From positions 1 to 64,000 of the forward strand of contig NZ_SOAZ01000014.1 in assembly GCF_004364155.1 (NCBI RefSeq): a stretch of DNA of 64,000 bases. The letters run 5' to 3'. The notes below the pieces were generated by a model that made no database searches, was not told the origin of the DNA, and saw nothing but the letters and a program-made list of their open reading frames with translations. Made by a program: the position numbers and the translations under genes. This document shows, one piece after another, positions 92 to 22,130 of this stretch (position 1 is the first letter of the stretch; every line of letters starts with the position of its first letter). This DNA is from Fonticella tunisiensis. Its GTDB lineage: Bacteria; Bacillota; Clostridia; Clostridiales; Caloramatoraceae.

Positions 92-119
92 CCTTGAAAA
101 TTAAGCCTTTCAAGGTTTT
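92..119 (+). promoter_or_regulatory. leader hairpin upstream of galK
   Basis: Inverted repeat ccttgaaa (92-99) / tttcaagg (108-115) followed by four T. It lies in the untranslated leader 40 bases before galK. It could be a weak terminator or attenuator, but the T-run is short. The rest of 1-157 shows no convincing gene. Confidence 0.3.
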
Positions 120-157
120 GCAAGAGACTAATTAAAAATAATTTTGGGGGGATTAAG

Positions 158-1321
158 ATGAAAACAGTTACAATTAAAAGATTAAAGGAGCTGTATGGAG
201 ATAACGGAAAGGAAATAAGGATTTTCTTTGCACCGGGACGTGTTAACCTTATAGGGGAGCATACGGACTATAATGGAGGATACGTTTTTCCCTGTGCACT
301 CGACTTTGGAACCTTTGCAGCAATACGCTTAAGGGATGACAGTAAAGTATGCTTTGCCTCAACAAACTTTGAACTTAGGGTAGAGGCAGACCTTAACGAT
401 ATAAGATATCAAAGGAAACATGACTGGGCAAATTATCCAAAGGGAGTATTGAAAATGCTCCAGAATGAGGGGTATAATTTTAATGGGTTTGAAGTTGTAT
501 TTGAAGGCAACATACCAAACGGTGCTGGTCTTTCATCATCAGCATCCATTGAACTTGTAACGGCAGTGGCAGTAAATGAAGTTTTTAATTTGAATATTGA
601 TAGAATAGAGCTTGTAAAACTTTGTCAGAGGGCTGAAGACATATTCTGTGGGGTAAACTGCGGAATTATGGATCAGTTTGCGGTTGGCATGGGAAAGGAA
701 AAGTCAGCTATATTTTTAAAGTGCGATACCCTTGAGTATAAATATGTTCCACTTGAAATGAAGGGATATAAGCTTGTTATATCTAATACAAATAAAAGAA
801 GGGGTCTTCAGGATTCAAAGTACAATGAAAGAAGAAGGGAATGTGAAGAGGCACTTTCATATCTGCAGAAAAAGCTTGATGTAGAAAACTTGGGACAGAT
901 TACAATGGAAGACTTTGAAAAGTATGAGAGCTTAATACCTTATGAGGTTTTAAGGAAAAGGGCGAGGCACGTAATTTCAGAGGATAAAAGGGTTTTAGAT
1001 GCAATCGATGCCCTAAAGAACAATGACCTTGCTGCCTTTGGAAAGCTTATGACAGGTTCACATGAATCATTGAAAGATGATTATGAAGTAACAGGAATAG
1101 AGCTTGACACCCTTGTTGAGGAAGCTTTAAAGCTTGATTTTGTGCTTGGTTCAAGGATGACAGGGGCTGGTTTTGGAGGATGCACCGTAAGTATTGTGGA
1201 GGAAGATAAAGTAGATGATTTCATCAATGTTGTAACCGAAAACTATGAAAAGAAAATCGGTTACAAACCAACTATGTATATTGCTGAAGTTGGTGAAGGG
1301 GCAAGGGAAATAAAATATTAA
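158..1321 (+). CDS. galK: galactokinase
   Basis: Phosphorylates alpha-D-galactose to galactose-1-phosphate with ATP, the first committed step of the Leloir pathway, in the cytosol. The 387-residue length is typical of GHMP-family galactokinases. All three family motifs are visible: the galactokinase signature [15 protein letters not shown] at residues 27-41, the ATP-binding motif [11 protein letters not shown] at 120-130, and the C-terminal GHMP motif MTGAGFGGC near 334-342. The ATG follows a run of G's (ggggggatta) that serves as ribosome site. galE follows after 16 bases, then a mutarotase-like gene, so the set is probably one transcript. No galT is seen; it may lie left of the window. Confidence 0.95.
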
Positions 1322-1337
1322 TACGGGAGGATTTAAA

Positions 1338-14604: not shown

Positions 14605-15102
14605 TTACTTATTGTGTTTAAAATATATGGAACCAATAAGAAGGGTTACAAGGGTAAGGGAAGCGCCAACTACTATCTTAATGCGGCTTACAGGTTTAAG
14701 TTGAACTTTTCCCGGGTCTACAATTTTAACATTACTGGCATGGATATCCATGTCACCTCCATGTTCCAAACAACTTTTATTAAATATTCCGGTAACCTCA
14801 ACGATATCTCCTTTGTGCTTATAATCTCCAAAGGTTTTAATCTTTTTTGCATCCTCCCATTTCATCCATACTCCCATGGGAAGACTTCCATCGCTTATAT
14901 TAACCCATCCATAATCTCCTCTTTTCATCGCCTCGCCAATGGCTTCACCTCTTATTGTGACTTCTTTGCCATTATAGACTGCAGCCTTTTCGACAAAGTC
15001 GCTAAAGTTTGAAACCTCATCAGCCCTGACTGTGAAGGATGTAAGAAGAGAAAAGAAAACTATAAAAAGAAGAAGGATATTTATTTTTAACGCCTTGAAC
15101 AT
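14605..15102 (-). CDS. exported OB-fold-like membrane protein of the potassium operon
   Basis: 165 residues. N-terminal signal peptide (hydrophobic about residues 8-25, VRADE cleavage-type region), a middle domain with KEVTIRGEAIGEAMKRGDYG and DIVEVTGIF that fits a small OB-fold (nucleic-acid or carbohydrate-binding-like beta-barrel), and a C-terminal membrane helix (about 143-160). The middle domain should therefore face outside. The start overlaps the end of trkH by 16 bases, so it is translated with the channel. I know no assigned function for such a partner; a role tied to potassium uptake is inferred only from the operon. Confidence 0.6.
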   Translation of the reverse strand: MFKALKINILLLFIVFFSLLTSFTVRADEVSNFSDFVEKAAVYNGKEVTIRGEAIGEAMKRGDYGWVNISDGSLPMGVWMKWEDAKKIKTFGDYKHKGDIVEVTGIFNKSCLEHGGDMDIHASNVKIVDPGKVQLKPVSRIKIVVGASLTLVTLLIGSIYFKHNK

Positions 15103-16613
15103 ATTTTTTTAATACCTCCAAACAAGAAGCCTACTAAAGCAAATACGGAAATAAATTCAAGCCTGCCAAGGAACATTGCTATTATATAAAACAACTTCAT
15201 AAGAGAAGGCATTGAAGGCGATGTAACTCCAATTGAAAGTCCAACGTTTCCGGTAACTGAAGCAGCTTCAAAAGCCGAGCTTAATAATGGATAGCCATAG
15301 TATGAACCAATTACCGTTCCAATTGAAAAAAGAACAACATAGCAAATTATAATAAGAGATGTGCTTTTAACAACTCCATCATCAAGTATTAAATCCTTAA
15401 TGTGGTGGAATTTAAACACCCTTACTCTTCTCTCAGAGCTTAAAAGCTTTTTAATGTCTGCAATTATTCCTTTAAATACAATTCCTACTCTGAGTCCTTT
15501 AAATCCTCCAGCTGTTGAGCATGCAGAACCACCAATCAGCATTGCAATTATTAACATTATAACTGCAAAATCCCCCCATTCAAGAGCAAACTGCCTTGCA
15601 TAGAGGCTTGCAAAACCTGTTGTTGTATGAGCTGATAACAAATGATATATACCTTTCCTAAAAATTGATACAGCATCGGTATATACGTTAAGTTTTGAAA
15701 GCCCAAGGGCTATAAAGAACGAGGTTAAGGTTGCTGTAATGAAAAAACTTTGGATTTCGATGTTTTTTACTATTTCCTTTTTATTTCCCTGCCATACAGC
15801 GTAGTGAAGTCCGAAGTTAAAGGAACCTATTATAAAGAATATTATGGTTAGTATTTCATAGGACATACTGTGATAGTAAAGAATGTTCTGCGACATAGGG
15901 GCAAATCCTCCAGTACTCCATGCTGACATAAAGATAAAAAGCCCATGAAAGAATGCAGATACTGGCTTTAACCCTATCATCATTCCGTTTATCCACATCA
16001 GCAGTGTACCAACTGCAAGATAGGACATGCTTATTGCCCATATTATTCTGGCTGTCCCTTTAACGTTTGGAACAAGCTCAATGTCCTTACCTTCTCCTAC
16101 ATACATCTTATAAGCGCCTGCTGTATCTCGCATAAGGAACGACAGTGCAAGAACGACCATTCCCTGACCGCCAACAAAGGTTAATATATGCCTCCAGGTG
16201 TTGAGGCTGAGGGACAGGTGTTCTAAATCCTGGGTAAGAACAAGCCCCGTTGTGGTAAATCCACTCATAACATCAAAGGCTGCATCCAAAAAAGAAAGAG
16301 CATGGCCGCTCAGCCTGTAGGGAATTGCACAAAGAAACATAAGCAAAATCCATGACAGGGAAGCGACTATAAGCCCATGTTTCCATTGAAATCTTACTTT
16401 GCCCAGGGATTTTTTTCCAAACATTATTAGTATAAGCCCAGTGCTTAAAGCTATATTGATGCTTATTATAAAGTCAGCTAATGCGCCCCACTCCTTAAAA
16501 AGTATAGAAACAATTATAGGTATCAGCATAAGAAGTGATGTCCATAATATTATAAAACCAGTGTAATAGCTTATAATTTTAATATCATAGTTTTGTTTAT
16601 TTTCCATATTCAT
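15087..16613 (-). CDS. trkH: Trk/Ktr-type potassium uptake channel subunit
   Basis: 508-residue polytopic membrane protein of the TrkH/KtrB family. Four M1-P-M2 repeats are visible with selectivity-filter-type sequences: SGFTTTGLVL, SAWSTGGFAP, SAHTTTGFAS and SVTGNVGLSIG. It forms the potassium pathway; cytosolic RCK proteins gate it, and these are encoded directly upstream in the same operon. Start ATG with gaggtga ribosome site. The gene immediately upstream is a 34-codon membrane peptide. Confidence 0.93.
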   Translation of the reverse strand: MNMENKQNYDIKIISYYTGFIILWTSLLMLIPIIVSILFKEWGALADFIISINIALSTGLILIMFGKKSLGKVRFQWKHGLIVASLSWILLMFLCAIPYRLSGHALSFLDAAFDVMSGFTTTGLVLTQDLEHLSLSLNTWRHILTFVGGQGMVVLALSFLMRDTAGAYKMYVGEGKDIELVPNVKGTARIIWAISMSYLAVGTLLMWINGMMIGLKPVSAFFHGLFIFMSAWSTGGFAPMSQNILYYHSMSYEILTIIFFIIGSFNFGLHYAVWQGNKKEIVKNIEIQSFFITATLTSFFIALGLSKLNVYTDAVSIFRKGIYHLLSAHTTTGFASLYARQFALEWGDFAVIMLIIAMLIGGSACSTAGGFKGLRVGIVFKGIIADIKKLLSSERRVRVFKFHHIKDLILDDGVVKSTSLIIICYVVLFSIGTVIGSYYGYPLLSSAFEAASVTGNVGLSIGVTSPSMPSLMKLFYIIAMFLGRLEFISVFALVGFLFGGIKKICSRR

Positions 16614-16616
16614 TAA

Positions 16617-16721
16617 TCACCTCGAAAGTACAAGGTTCATGACAAAAAGCATTACCACAAATATCAAAACGAAGGACATTTCCAAGAATACGCCCTTTAT
16701 AATCTTTTTAGCGCTTAACAT
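16617..16721 (-). CDS. 34-residue single-helix membrane peptide between trkA and trkH
   Basis: Too short for most gene finders. ATG (16719-16721 on the complement), TGA at 16617-16619. The product starts MLSAKKIIKGVFLEMS and then has about 18 hydrophobic residues (FVLIFVVMLFVMNLVL) ending SR: a positive-inside N-terminus and one membrane helix. The start lies 4 bases after the trkA stop with gggggaatagg as ribosome site, and its stop overlaps the ribosome site of trkH, so all three are translationally coupled. By analogy KdpF, a 29-residue subunit, stabilises the Kdp potassium pump; a similar role for TrkH is my inference. No family recognised. Confidence 0.6.
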   Translation of the reverse strand: MLSAKKIIKGVFLEMSFVLIFVVMLFVMNLVLSR

Positions 16722-16725
16722 AATC

Positions 16726-17385
16726 CTATTCCCCCATTATGCATCTTTCTACTTCATCTTTCATATTAACGCTCGTTACTATAAGAACCCTGTCTCCTTC
16801 TTTAATTTCCACATTCCCCTTTGGAAAGATAATTTTATCATTTCGCAGGATTGAAACTATAAGGCATTCCTCGGGAAGATCGAGGGAGCTTATTATTTTG
16901 CTGCACCAGGGGCTCTTTCTTAAAATGCTGGCCTCTGCGAGAATCATTTCTCCTCTATCAAGTGTTTGAATTGGCCTGAGCATGCTGCTGTTTAGTTCGC
17001 CTTCAATTAGATTAGCAATAACCTCTGTGCTGCAAACCGTCCTATCAACTCCAAGAGCCTTGAATATGGTTCTGTTTTTAGGATTGTTTATTCTTGCGAT
17101 GGTTTTAGCTACGTTAAAATTTACCTTTGCAATCTGGCAAATAACAAGATTTTCTTCATCCTTGCCTGTAACAGCGGCAACGACTTCGGTTTTTTCAATA
17201 TCAGCATCATAAAGAACTTCTGGATTGGTGCCATCACCGCATATGATATTTGCGTCAATTTCTTCGGCAGTCTTATCGCATATTTTTTTATTCCTTTCTA
17301 TTAATGTTACATCATATCCCTTTTGGTTTAAGGTTTTTAGAAGGTAATAACCAACCTTCCCTCCGCCCACAACTATTGCTTTCAT
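16726..17385 (-). CDS. trkA: TrkA/KtrA RCK regulator of potassium uptake
   Basis: 219-residue cytosolic RCK protein. Rossmann nucleotide-binding motif VVGGGKVG at residues 5-12 with the ribose-binding acid near LIER; RCK_N covers about 1-130 and RCK_C about 135-215 (EEGDRVLIVT-like KEGDRVLIVTS near the end). Binds nucleotides and, through RCK_C, possibly c-di-AMP or cations to gate the TrkH channel. The start overlaps the preceding trkA-like gene by 4 bases (ATGA type). Confidence 0.9.
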   Translation of the reverse strand: MKAIVVGGGKVGYYLLKTLNQKGYDVTLIERNKKICDKTAEEIDANIICGDGTNPEVLYDADIEKTEVVAAVTGKDEENLVICQIAKVNFNVAKTIARINNPKNRTIFKALGVDRTVCSTEVIANLIEGELNSSMLRPIQTLDRGEMILAEASILRKSPWCSKIISSLDLPEECLIVSILRNDKIIFPKGNVEIKEGDRVLIVTSVNMKDEVERCIMGE

Positions 17386-18035
17386 ATTAACAACTCCTTT
17401 GATAGAGAAGCTATAAGCCTTTCTTTGTTCGTACTATCTATTGTACAAATAATCTTATCCCTTGGCTGAAGCAGCTGTCCACTATCGGGTATTTTGTAGG
17501 TATCGCCCCTTAAAACAGCCGACACTATACAATTAAATTCATCTTCAAAATCCTTTACTGTTTTAAGCTTTGCCTTTGGAATGTCTGTTTCTATAATCTC
17601 AAGGCTGCTGCTTAATATAAATAAGGTGCTAACTCTGGCATTTGTAATTCGCGTTTTTATGATATTAACTCCAAGCTCTGTAGGAGTTATAGTTTCAATT
17701 CCAAGCTTTTCATATATGAATTTCTTCTGAGGCTCGCAAACCCTGGCAATAACCCCTGAAACGTTGAAGATGTTCTTTGCAATTTGTGAAGCAGTAAGGT
17801 TAATGTTATCATCGTAGGTTAATGCGAGGAAAAAATCCGCCTTATCAATTCCGGCTTCCAGCAATATATCGGTATCATATTCAATACCCCTTATTCTGTG
17901 ACCATTGAAACCGCTTCCAAGCCTGTCTAAATTTTCATCATCATTATCTATTACTGCAACGTCATGTCCTTCATCTGAAAGTTCCATAGCAAGTGTGCTT
18001 CCAAGTCCTCCACATCCAACAATTATTACATACAT
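17382..18035 (-). CDS. second TrkA-like RCK protein
   Basis: 217 residues, RCK_N plus RCK_C like its neighbour: nucleotide motif IVGCGGLGS at residues 4-12, ribose-contact VIDND, and a C-terminal RCK_C ending QPRDKIICTID. The two full-length RCK genes are adjacent and overlap, so the gating ring may be hetero-oligomeric. Sequence divergence from the first copy is large, so it is an old duplication rather than a recent one. Start ATG with aggaggaagc ribosome site inside the upstream gene. Confidence 0.88.
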   Translation of the reverse strand: MYVIIVGCGGLGSTLAMELSDEGHDVAVIDNDDENLDRLGSGFNGHRIRGIEYDTDILLEAGIDKADFFLALTYDDNINLTASQIAKNIFNVSGVIARVCEPQKKFIYEKLGIETITPTELGVNIIKTRITNARVSTLFILSSSLEIIETDIPKAKLKTVKDFEDEFNCIVSAVLRGDTYKIPDSGQLLQPRDKIICTIDSTNKERLIASLSKELLI

Positions 18036-18391
18036 TTAGCTTCCTCCTTAAAGAAGAAATCTTCTATACTGTCTTTTAAGAGAAGATTTGCGCAAATAGC
18101 GAAGTCGATATCCTGCTTCTCCATAAACTCAAGATTATCAATGTTGTTTACAAGGGCTACAGTCTTACTTACTCCATAAACTTTTTTGGCCATCTTACAT
18201 AAAAAAAGGTTCGTTTCATCGCTGTTTGTAAGTGCCAGAAGGTACTTGGCACGCTCAATTCCGTGATCTTTAAGAATTTTTTCATTTATTTCTTCCTGCT
18301 TATCTATATAGGAAACGCCAATACCTTTATCTATAAGGCTGTCAAGAATGAGCTGACTTCTTAGCCTATCTCCGACTACAAGTGCAAGCAT
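18026..18391 (-). CDS. RCK_N-only protein, degenerate nucleotide site
   Basis: 121 residues matching only the N-terminal half of TrkA: LALVVGDRLRSQLILDSLID aligns with the Rossmann entry but the GxGxxG loop is replaced by GDRLRS, and there is no RCK_C domain. The middle (YLLALTNSDETNLFLCKMAK) still follows the RCK_N pattern. It overlaps the next gene by 10 bases and begins one base before the end of the gene upstream. Probably a non-nucleotide-binding partner of the full-length RCK proteins; the role is inferred. Confidence 0.7.
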   Translation of the reverse strand: MLALVVGDRLRSQLILDSLIDKGIGVSYIDKQEEINEKILKDHGIERAKYLLALTNSDETNLFLCKMAKKVYGVSKTVALVNNIDNLEFMEKQDIDFAICANLLLKDSIEDFFFKEEAKCM

Positions 18392-18772
18392 TTATACTAC
18401 CTCCCTTTCAATAAGCTCCCTTATAATGTGCCCCAGGCAAATCACCTTATATGCCCCGTCTGCTATCTGAAGCATTTTTTCGTCCTTAAACACAACATAA
18501 AGATCTTTGTGATTTTTCAATCCCTCTGCAAGCATCATATTGAGCCTGTCATCATTCGTTACTACAAATATGCTATCCACTAAATGGGTTTCAACCATGC
18601 TTTTAACAAGGGCAACATTTTTAATGTCGATTTCAGTTTTGATAATTTTGCGATGTTTAAAATTTTCAATATCTTCTTTAGAACCTAAAAACATTATGCT
18701 TTTACCTTTGCTTTCAAGTAAATTTATTATCATTTCAGTGTATTCGCTTTTCCCTATAATTGCACTATACAT
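18392..18772 (-). CDS. diverged RCK_N-like protein
   Basis: 126 residues, ATG at 18772 chosen because aggagg lies just upstream; an in-frame start 7 codons earlier would bury it. MYSAIIGKSEYTEMIINLLE and SIFVVTNDDRLNMMLAEGLK retain the spacing of an RCK_N domain, but the glycine loop is again missing (GKSEYT). No C-terminal RCK_C. With its neighbour it makes two degenerate half-length RCK genes followed by two full-length ones in a single operon. Confidence 0.65.
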   Translation of the reverse strand: MYSAIIGKSEYTEMIINLLESKGKSIMFLGSKEDIENFKHRKIIKTEIDIKNVALVKSMVETHLVDSIFVVTNDDRLNMMLAEGLKNHKDLYVVFKDEKMLQIADGAYKVICLGHIIRELIEREVV

Positions 18773-19340
18773 AGCTGCTCCTCCTGCTTCCAAATAACTT
18801 AGTGTGATATCTGCCTTTACTCATAATGCGTATAATGTTGTCGCTAAACTCAGCAGTTTTACTTAATGTGCTTTCAAAAATCCTCTTATCATCTATAAAG
18901 TAGTTTTCAGGCGCAAAATCATAGGGTCTGCTCCTATCCTCAACACCGGATATTCTAAGGAATTCCCTGTCAAAGCTGGCGTCGAGATAAAGCTTCTTAC
19001 TAAAAAATTCTATTTCAACATAGAACCATGGTGCTTCCTTTCTACCTATGCCTGCTAATCTTTCAGTACGGTCAATTATAAATTTATATAAGAGTTTACA
19101 GTTAAAACCGCTGGTTTTAAGCAGAGTATGCAAAAGCACATTTTTATCAAAGTTGTTTCCTCTTCCCATTACAAGGGTTTCAGAGGCTCTTTGAATTGGC
19201 GCTGTGCTGTCATAGTATATTGAATTTTTAACCTCGTTATAAATAGCATTGAGCTTTTCAAGTCCAGATTTATCATCAAAGTTATTGCTCAGATAATTTA
19301 TTATGACGCTGTTTCCAGCATCACAATATTGATTAAGCAT
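18765..19340 (-). CDS. transglutaminase-like protein lacking the catalytic cysteine
   Basis: 191-residue soluble protein, first gene of the potassium operon. AIYNEVKNSIYYD followed by ASETLVMGRGNNFDKNVLLH and LLKTSGFNCKLLYK is the layout of a transglutaminase-like (cysteine-protease-fold) core, in which the usual G-x-C-x-x-K/A position reads GNN here, so the nucleophile is gone. WFYVEIEF and LYLDASFD correspond to the His and Asp blocks, with His absent too as far as I can see. A binding rather than catalytic role is likely. Ends 8 bases inside the next gene. ATG with ggggag ribosome site. Confidence 0.55.
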   Translation of the reverse strand: MLNQYCDAGNSVIINYLSNNFDDKSGLEKLNAIYNEVKNSIYYDSTAPIQRASETLVMGRGNNFDKNVLLHTLLKTSGFNCKLLYKFIIDRTERLAGIGRKEAPWFYVEIEFFSKKLYLDASFDREFLRISGVEDRSRPYDFAPENYFIDDKRIFESTLSKTAEFSDNIIRIMSKGRYHTKLFGSRRSSYV

Positions 19341-19689: not shown

Positions 19690-21552
19690 ATGCTTAAAAC
19701 GCTAAAAAATAAGATAACTTTTGTATATATGTGCCTTGTGCTTCTTATAGCTGTGGTGGGCATTACTGCTACTTTTAAGCTTTATGATATAACTAAATCC
19801 ATAGACGGTCTTATGGTTAACAACTATAAGAGTATAAATGCAGTAAACAATATGCTTGAAATAGTTCAAAACCAGAATGTTGATATTTTAAATTATATTT
19901 ATGAAGACAAGGAAAAGGCTATAGATTCTTTCCACAAAGACACTAACAGCTTTTACAAATGGTTCAGTATAGAGTATAACAATATAACAGAGGTTGGAGA
20001 AAAGGAACATAATGAAAGGATAAATGAGTACTATGTAGAATATGTAAAACTTTTCTCAAACCTTCAAGAGATAAGAAATAATGAGGGCATAGAAAGCGCT
20101 GTAAAGTTTTATAACGAAAAAATATTGCCCCTCCAAAATAGTATAAAGGATGAGCTTAAAAACCTCTCGCTTTTAAATGAAAGGGCAATGCTTACCAGTA
20201 AAGATGAGGCTGCAAGGGATTCGCAGAGTTCTTTAAAAATTGTCTTAATTATGTCTGCAGGAGCTTTAATAGGTGGATTTTTAGTATCTATATATTTTAT
20301 AAATAAATTCTTCAAACCAATAGTTTTATTGACTGAAACAATGAAATCTGTAAGGGAAGGGAATTTAGACAAGCAGGCCCCTGTGATGTCAAAGGATGAA
20401 ATAGGCGAACTTGCCCAGGAGTTTAACAACATGACACGAAGGCTTCAGGAGTTTGAGCAGAGCACCCTGGGAAAACTTCTTAATGAGAAAAACAAATCAT
20501 TAGCCATAGTTAAAAGTATTTCAGACCCTCTCATTGTACTCGATACAAGCTATAGAATAGTGCTTTTAAATAAAGCCTGCGAGGACGTGTTCAATCTGGT
20601 TGAGGATAAGGTTATAAACAGACATTTACTTGAGGCGATCAGGGATGGAAACCTGTTTGATCATGTTTCAAGCATGCTTGCTTCAAATGAAGATGAGCAT
20701 AAACAAAAGATAATGTATTTTAAATCCAATAATAAGGAATACTACTTCAATGTAATTGTAACGGCGGTTCGAGATGGTAATTCAAATATTAATGGTGTTG
20801 TTGTGCTGTTTCAGGACGTAACCAATCTAAAGCAGCTTGAAAAGATGAAAACTGATCTTATATCAACCATATCCCATGAATTCAAAACTCCATTAACTTC
20901 TATACTAATAGGCACAAGCCTTGTTGAGGATGAAAGCTTGGGAGAACTAAATGAAAAGCAGAAGGAGATCATTAATGCAATTAAGGAGGATGGTGAAAGG
21001 CTGTCATCCCTGGTAAATAACCTTATTGATCTTTCAAAGATTGAATCGGATAAATCTATATTTAAATTTGAAAAATGCTCAATAGAGGATGTCATTCTTA
21101 ACAGTATAAAGGGTTTTTATGCCCAGGCCGAGGATAAGAATATAAACCTTTACTATAAAGTTACGGAAAACCTTCCACAGGTTGTAGCTGACTTTGAAAA
21201 AATCACCTGGGTAATAAACAATTTGATATCCAACGCTCTTAAAGCAACTGGAGAGGGAGGAGAAATTTCAATAAATGCCTATGCAAGACAGAACCGGATA
21301 TACGTTTCTGTCAAGGATACAGGAGCAGGAATACCTGAAGAATATAGAAAAAAGATATTTGATAAATTTACTCAACTTGATGATCCTCACTTTGAAAGAA
21401 GTGGAAGCGGACTCGGACTAGCGATAGCTAAAGAGATAATAGAAGCACATCAAGGGGAAATATGGTGTGAGAGCAAGTTAAACGCAGGAAGCAATTTTAT
21501 TTTTACACTTCCACTCAATAAAACTGAAGAGAGTTTAGGGGGAAATATATGA
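19690..21552 (+). CDS. membrane sensor histidine kinase
   Basis: 620 residues. One membrane helix at about 10-30, an extracytoplasmic helical sensor of ~150 residues, a second helix at about 178-202, HAMP (about 203-255), PAS (about 262-385), HisKA with phosphoacceptor His396 in ISHEFKTPLTSIL, and a HATPase domain with N-box NNLISNALKAT, DTGAGIPEEYRKKIF (G1) and GSGLGLAIAKEI (G2). The order is that of PhoR/KinB-like class I kinases. The response regulator start overlaps its stop by 4 bases, so they are a pair. Divergent from the potassium operon, which it may control; the signal is unknown. Confidence 0.92.
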   Translation: MLKTLKNKITFVYMCLVLLIAVVGITATFKLYDITKSIDGLMVNNYKSINAVNNMLEIVQNQNVDILNYIYEDKEKAIDSFHKDTNSFYKWFSIEYNNITEVGEKEHNERINEYYVEYVKLFSNLQEIRNNEGIESAVKFYNEKILPLQNSIKDELKNLSLLNERAMLTSKDEAARDSQSSLKIVLIMSAGALIGGFLVSIYFINKFFKPIVLLTETMKSVREGNLDKQAPVMSKDEIGELAQEFNNMTRRLQEFEQSTLGKLLNEKNKSLAIVKSISDPLIVLDTSYRIVLLNKACEDVFNLVEDKVINRHLLEAIRDGNLFDHVSSMLASNEDEHKQKIMYFKSNNKEYYFNVIVTAVRDGNSNINGVVVLFQDVTNLKQLEKMKTDLISTISHEFKTPLTSILIGTSLVEDESLGELNEKQKEIINAIKEDGERLSSLVNNLIDLSKIESDKSIFKFEKCSIEDVILNSIKGFYAQAEDKNINLYYKVTENLPQVVADFEKITWVINNLISNALKATGEGGEISINAYARQNRIYVSVKDTGAGIPEEYRKKIFDKFTQLDDPHFERSGSGLGLAIAKEIIEAHQGEIWCESKLNAGSNFIFTLPLNKTEESLGGNI

Positions 21553-22130
21553 AAAAAGCTCTTGTGGTAGATGATACTAAAAATATTAGAATGCTTTTAA
21601 CAACATGTCTTGAAGTTAATGATTTTACTGTCATAACTGCAAGTAACGGACGTGAAGCCCTTGAATTGCTTGAAAAGGAAAAATTTGATATCGCATTTTT
21701 AGATATAAAATTGCCGGAAGTAAGCGGTACGGAGATTTTAAGAAGGATAAGGGCAGAGGGAGTAAATGTACCGGTTGTTATAATGACAGCCTTTGGAACA
21801 ATAAAAAATGCGGTTGAATGTACAAAACTGGGGGCGGTTGCATATCTTCAAAAGCCATTTACTGCTGATAAAATAAAGAACCTTCTTCAGGAGTTTTATT
21901 CTCTTGAGAATAAGAGCAATGATATTGCTGGTCTTGTAAAAAAAGGAAGGGAATTTATTTTAGAAAATAAAGAGGAAGAAGCCCTTTCCTGTCTTAAAAA
22001 GGCCCTTTCAATTGATCCTGCCTGTGGAGAAATATATTACTATATAGGAAGGATTTATGAGATAAAAGGAGATAAAGAAAAAGCGAGTAAATTTTATTTA
22101 ACAGCAAGAAATTTTGGATATATAAATTGA
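21549..22130 (+). CDS. response regulator with TPR-like output domain
   Basis: 193 residues. Receiver domain 1-120 with acidic pocket Asp8/Asp9, phosphoacceptor Asp52 (FLDIKLPE), Thr80 (MTAF) and Lys102 (QKPF). Instead of a DNA-binding domain the C-terminal ~65 residues read GREFILENKEEEALSCLKKA and SIDPACGEIYYYIGRIYEIK, two helix-turn-helix TPR repeats. Output is therefore probably protein-protein interaction, as in phosphorelay or partner-switch regulators. Encoded with the kinase (ATGA overlap) and followed by a strong terminator. Confidence 0.85.
   Translation: MKKALVVDDTKNIRMLLTTCLEVNDFTVITASNGREALELLEKEKFDIAFLDIKLPEVSGTEILRRIRAEGVNVPVVIMTAFGTIKNAVECTKLGAVAYLQKPFTADKIKNLLQEFYSLENKSNDIAGLVKKGREFILENKEEEALSCLKKALSIDPACGEIYYYIGRIYEIKGDKEKASKFYLTARNFGYIN

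Follow-up and report, generated by a model that had tools for sequence, protein, structure and literature searches.

Trk and Ktr channels are textbook K+ uptake systems and have been studied as a channel together with an RCK ring. The trk locus of Fonticella tunisiensis, where a 34-codon open reading frame is wedged between a trkA and the trkH gene, raises the question of whether such a system can include a further membrane component, and whether that component would act on the channel, on the RCK proteins or on neither. The window referred to throughout is the whole stretch of 64,000 nucleotides that was analyzed.

A short open reading frame in the trk operon

The small ORF occupies positions 16617..16721 on the minus strand, running from ATG to TGA and encoding a 34-aa product (MLSAKKIIKGVFLEMSFVLIFVVMLFVMNLVLSR) with one hydrophobic stretch, a basic N-terminus and two residues, G10 and E14, that proved invariant among its relatives. 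The stop codon of the preceding trkA ends at 16726 and the small ORF starts at 16721, leaving a gap of 4 bases. Its own TGA (16619-16617) lies inside the hexamer AGGTGA, a plausible ribosome site for trkH, whose start at 16613 falls 3 bases past the small-ORF stop. These observations bear out most of the original prediction, in which the same coordinates (strand unstated, here assigned to minus), the 4-base spacing from trkA, the overlap between the stop and the trkH ribosome site, and a single membrane helix with a basic N-terminal end had all been proposed. The ribosome site that it also ascribed to the small ORF is clearer in most relatives (TGGAGG, AGGAGG, AGGAGC) but weak in the window, where GGGGG is found about 9 bases upstream.

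The downstream gene (15087..16613, minus) encodes a TrkH-like channel of 508 aa (Pfam TrkH, E-value 1.9e-40). Directly upstream of the small ORF lies a single-RCK trkA of 219 aa (16726..17385, minus; TrkA_N and TrkA_C), which is overlapped by a first single-RCK trkA of 217 aa (17382..18035, minus; TrkA_N). These RCK-type partners are kept in relatives, and the two genes correspond to the halves of the canonical two-RCK TrkA. Two different single-RCK trkA genes precede the small ORF in nearly all loci of the TrkH branch described below. One branch locus, L080, instead has a 409-aa ORF (97..1326, reverse of the stored strand) in which the two RCK domains are joined, the C-terminal part of the first seemingly missing, so that the split trkA genes are naturally fused here.

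Further genes surround this core. Two short TrkA-like genes of 121 and 133 aa (18026..18391 and 18392..18793, minus) lie ahead of the two full trkA genes and seem to encode RCK proteins that are truncated or have diverged, the TrkA_N match of the 133-aa gene being weak. The first gene of the operon (18765..19340, minus) encodes a transglutaminase-like protein (Pfam Transglut_core), and lookalikes were seen near the trk genes of L002 (332..883) and L019 (1236..1781). A divergently oriented histidine kinase gene (19690..21552, plus; 4HB_MCP, HAMP and PAS) is followed by one for a response regulator that has TPR repeats at its C-terminus (21549..22130, plus). Response-regulator-like ORFs are likewise found close to trk in L003, L011 and L019, as are TPR-like sequences within ORFs of L011-L013, and these genes may point to a regulator of the trk operon. 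At the other end, a gene for a 165-aa protein (14605..15102, minus) overlaps the 3' end of trkH. This protein matches no Pfam family; its N-terminus is signal-like and a membrane helix lies at its C-terminus.

The small ORF exhibits coding constraint, in agreement with one of the checks that had been proposed for it. Across nine closely related pairs, the pooled pN/pS was 0.30 (pN 0.096, pS 0.320), the differences being distributed over the three codon positions as 46, 23 and 84, and none of 2000 draws from a random-substitution null with the same number of substitutions was as low. The pair L015/L016 taken alone gave a ratio of 1.0, thus the purifying signal is one pooled across the nine pairs.

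Occurrence of the peptide across TrkH loci

The other proposed check concerned the presence of a short ORF upstream of trkH in relatives, and this was found at the same place, with a single predicted helix, in each of the 39 loci examined whose TrkH belongs to the branch of the window protein. A TrkH protein scan yielded 18 usable loci (L002-L019) in Clostridium, Acetobacterium, Lacrimispora, Faecalimicrobium and several MAGs. In every one of them, the short ORF separates trkH from a single-RCK trkA. When 398 genomes of the phylum were searched separately, 19 had a TrkH of this branch, namely the window's own genome and 18 others (L073-L090), and each of the 18 new loci harbored the small ORF. 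It was also present in two more relatives that came from a family search and in one that a later search of the class added. The count of 39 includes the window and drops the duplicate L002/L052. Branch membership was sharply separated by TrkH similarity, with members at 466 bits or more and the nearest other proteins at 173 bits or less. No TrkH of this branch turned up on plasmids, where the best match in a search reached 31% identity.

None of 38 other TrkH/KtrB loci contained an ORF matching the peptide profile; these controls comprise 29 of 30 canonical loci, drawn largely from one class (L044 was excluded at a contig end), together with L053, L054, L092-L097 and the KtrB-KtrA locus of the window's own genome. 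In the canonical loci, trkH is preceded, with overlap or directly abutting, by a trkA of about 450 aa that has two RCK domains. Upstream regions scored 29-49 bits against the profile in branch loci and below 5 bits elsewhere, a comparison that is partly circular, as the profile was built from those same peptides. This circularity was checked by scoring the distant group with a profile built from the close group only, and vice versa. The cross-group profiles recovered most peptides of the other group (for example, E-values of 3e-8 for L091 and 4e-9 for L052), several peptides being matched weakly and a few as low as noise, and the canonical upstream regions stayed at noise. An earlier profile (A1) had also detected G160, G332 and G286 before these were recognized as branch members.

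In a tree of 68 TrkH proteins, a quick reconstruction with long branches that was used solely for the separation of peptide-bearing rows, the 38 such rows fell on one side of a branch with a support of 97, so that presence of the peptide amounts to a single change. The channel proteins of this branch share many residues absent from other TrkH, among them W77, N138, H142, Q150, K176-D177, H248 and E449, and the branch is therefore distinct in its own right. Together, these observations make it nearly certain that the small gene is real, conserved and tied to one TrkH branch.

We also searched for named relatives of the peptide. Neither Pfam nor NCBIfam holds a family covering the 31 distinct peptides, and the profile found none among PDB sequences. 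Other named families could be rejected, since they gave only stray single-member matches with weak E-values, as could the idea of a peptide homologous to part of canonical TrkH or TrkA through fusion, for which the best profile scores, about 3 bits, were noise. An open-access literature search returned nothing on a small Trk subunit.

Peptide anatomy and possible roles

The branch peptides span 32-49 aa with a single helix, and the 31 distinct sequences share one layout, in which a basic tail of variable length is followed by G, three residues, E and about 19 mostly hydrophobic residues, frequently with a terminal basic residue. The tail is highly variable in both length and sequence, unlike G and E, which are invariant throughout. 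The mean charge is +2.45 ahead of E and +0.81 beyond it, a distribution that follows the positive-inside rule, and the N-terminus is thus probably on the cytoplasmic side. Apart from G and E, no conserved helix face was found, the periodicity being not significant (465 of 5000 shuffles were equally high). A fixed partner best explains an invariant glutamate located close to the cytoplasmic end of the helix, and this conservation points to a specific contact more than to a filler acting purely like a lipid.

As for the identity of this partner, the occurrence of the peptide with one TrkH branch only speaks for a component specific to Trk, and from the sequence comparisons we consider it probable that the product is an accessory subunit of this TrkH subfamily. 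Under this proposal, a single-pass protein would be obligatory for the subfamily; its translation between trkA and trkH would place it beside the channel as the latter is made, its helix would pack on TrkH, where a specific contact near the cytoplasmic end would come from the invariant G and E, and it may stabilize the TrkH dimer or adjust gating by the TrkA (RCK) ring, much as KdpF serves KdpA/KdpB.

We modelled the peptide and TrkH as a single chain through the TGA, purely as a device and with no readthrough claimed. Despite a pTM of 0.74, the fused model was of low confidence (mean pLDDT 66, with about 60 in the peptide helix), too low for docking the peptide onto the channel, and within it the TrkH fold was confirmed by matches to 6v4k, the best, and 3pjz (Foldseek to 6v4k, TM 0.84 on target). 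The small ORF and trkH share a reading frame with one stop codon between them in 7 of the 39 loci (L006, L013, L015, L016, L081, L089 and the window), which looks accidental because both the stop type and the linker vary among the seven.

The linkage to TrkH could instead reflect TrkA binding or a shared ancestral operon. A peptide serving as a membrane anchor or regulator of TrkA, its basic tail touching the RCK ring and its helix holding the ring at the membrane, would account for the position next to trkA, for the charge of the tail and for the confinement to TrkH loci in which split RCK genes predominate. We nevertheless judge it unlikely, since it is the tail that varies so greatly and the helix residues that do not, L080 keeps the peptide with both its RCK domains in one ORF, and TrkA normally binds TrkH directly (PMC6987127). 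The retention in L080 likewise disfavors a role limited to joining the split TrkA halves.

The tight spacing of 3-4 bases on either side and the stop overlapping the trkH ribosome site would also suit a translational coupler or leader, in which translation of the short ORF opens that site and the peptide itself is inert. An inert peptide would hardly be expected to retain a pN/pS of 0.30, invariant residues and a conserved membrane helix, and canonical trkA-trkH pairs couple by direct overlap with no need of such an ORF, which leaves this explanation improbable. Similarly remote is an independent small membrane protein, for instance a factor for assembly or proteolysis, which would belong to the operon without being a subunit. 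Many small bacterial membrane proteins do modulate unrelated targets, but this one is found solely beside one TrkH branch; a profile search of the window's own genome, including its KtrB-KtrA locus, detected no orphan copy besides the single gene described here, and 299 genomes of the phylum gave no convincing unlinked match. A functionless chance ORF, which the short length and the weak ribosome site in the window might suggest, is rejected by the conservation in 39 of 39 loci with invariant residues and by the purifying selection, and its probability is negligible.

Returning to an accessory subunit of TrkH, we slightly favor the more specific possibility that this subfamily is a three-part system composed of TrkH, a hetero-RCK ring of two different TrkA proteins and a dedicated single-helix subunit that would set stability or gating through the invariant G-x-x-x-E. 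If this is true, the peptide would be a type of small subunit new to the Trk/Ktr channels, and work on heterologously produced channels of this wide branch lacking the obligate third subunit would be incomplete. Branches with and without the peptide would also offer a clean comparison of how a single helix tunes a channel. The peptides also constitute a family of small proteins, marked by a motif and a genomic rule, which annotation misses.

Comparison with known systems

In common with small accessory subunits, the locus presents a conserved short coding gene within an operon and a product with one membrane helix. KdpF, invoked in the original prediction, resembles the peptide in its length of about 30 residues, its one membrane helix and an operon shared with KdpA, a channel-like subunit from the same superfamily as TrkH; it has been reported to stabilize its complex (Gassel et al. 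1999, as cited in PMC6255902). The peptide differs in the position of its gene, which in all loci lies between trkA and trkH and not with kdpABC, in having as its putative partner a TrkH channel with TrkA rather than a P-type ATPase complex, and in the invariant G-x-x-x-E motif, which is present only in the peptides described here. Searches of Pfam, NCBIfam and PDB sequences produced no KdpF match among the peptides, a weak test for helices of about 30 residues. The comparison thus holds as an analogy and not as a sequence relation, KdpF appearing to be the nearest functional parallel and not a detectable relative. CydX, the small subunit of cytochrome bd, is likewise a small single-helix protein overlooked by annotation (PMC4325964), but belongs to an unrelated complex and gave no profile match.

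With regard to the channel, KtrAB of Bacillus subtilis (8k1t and others) shares with this locus a single-RCK regulatory protein, KtrA having one RCK domain (PMC6987127), and a channel of the same superfamily, whereas here two different RCK genes accompany a TrkH-type channel. TrkHA of Vibrio parahaemolyticus (3pjz, 4j9u, 6v4j-l) has the same TrkH fold and RCK-type TrkA partners. Its solved complexes are described with TrkH and the two-RCK TrkA only, the latter passing from tetramer to dimer upon channel opening (PMC6987127). In comparison, the TrkH of the present locus has about 24% identity to that of TrkHA, two separate genes take the place of the single trkA, and a membrane protein of 34 aa comes in addition, encoded between these genes and trkH.
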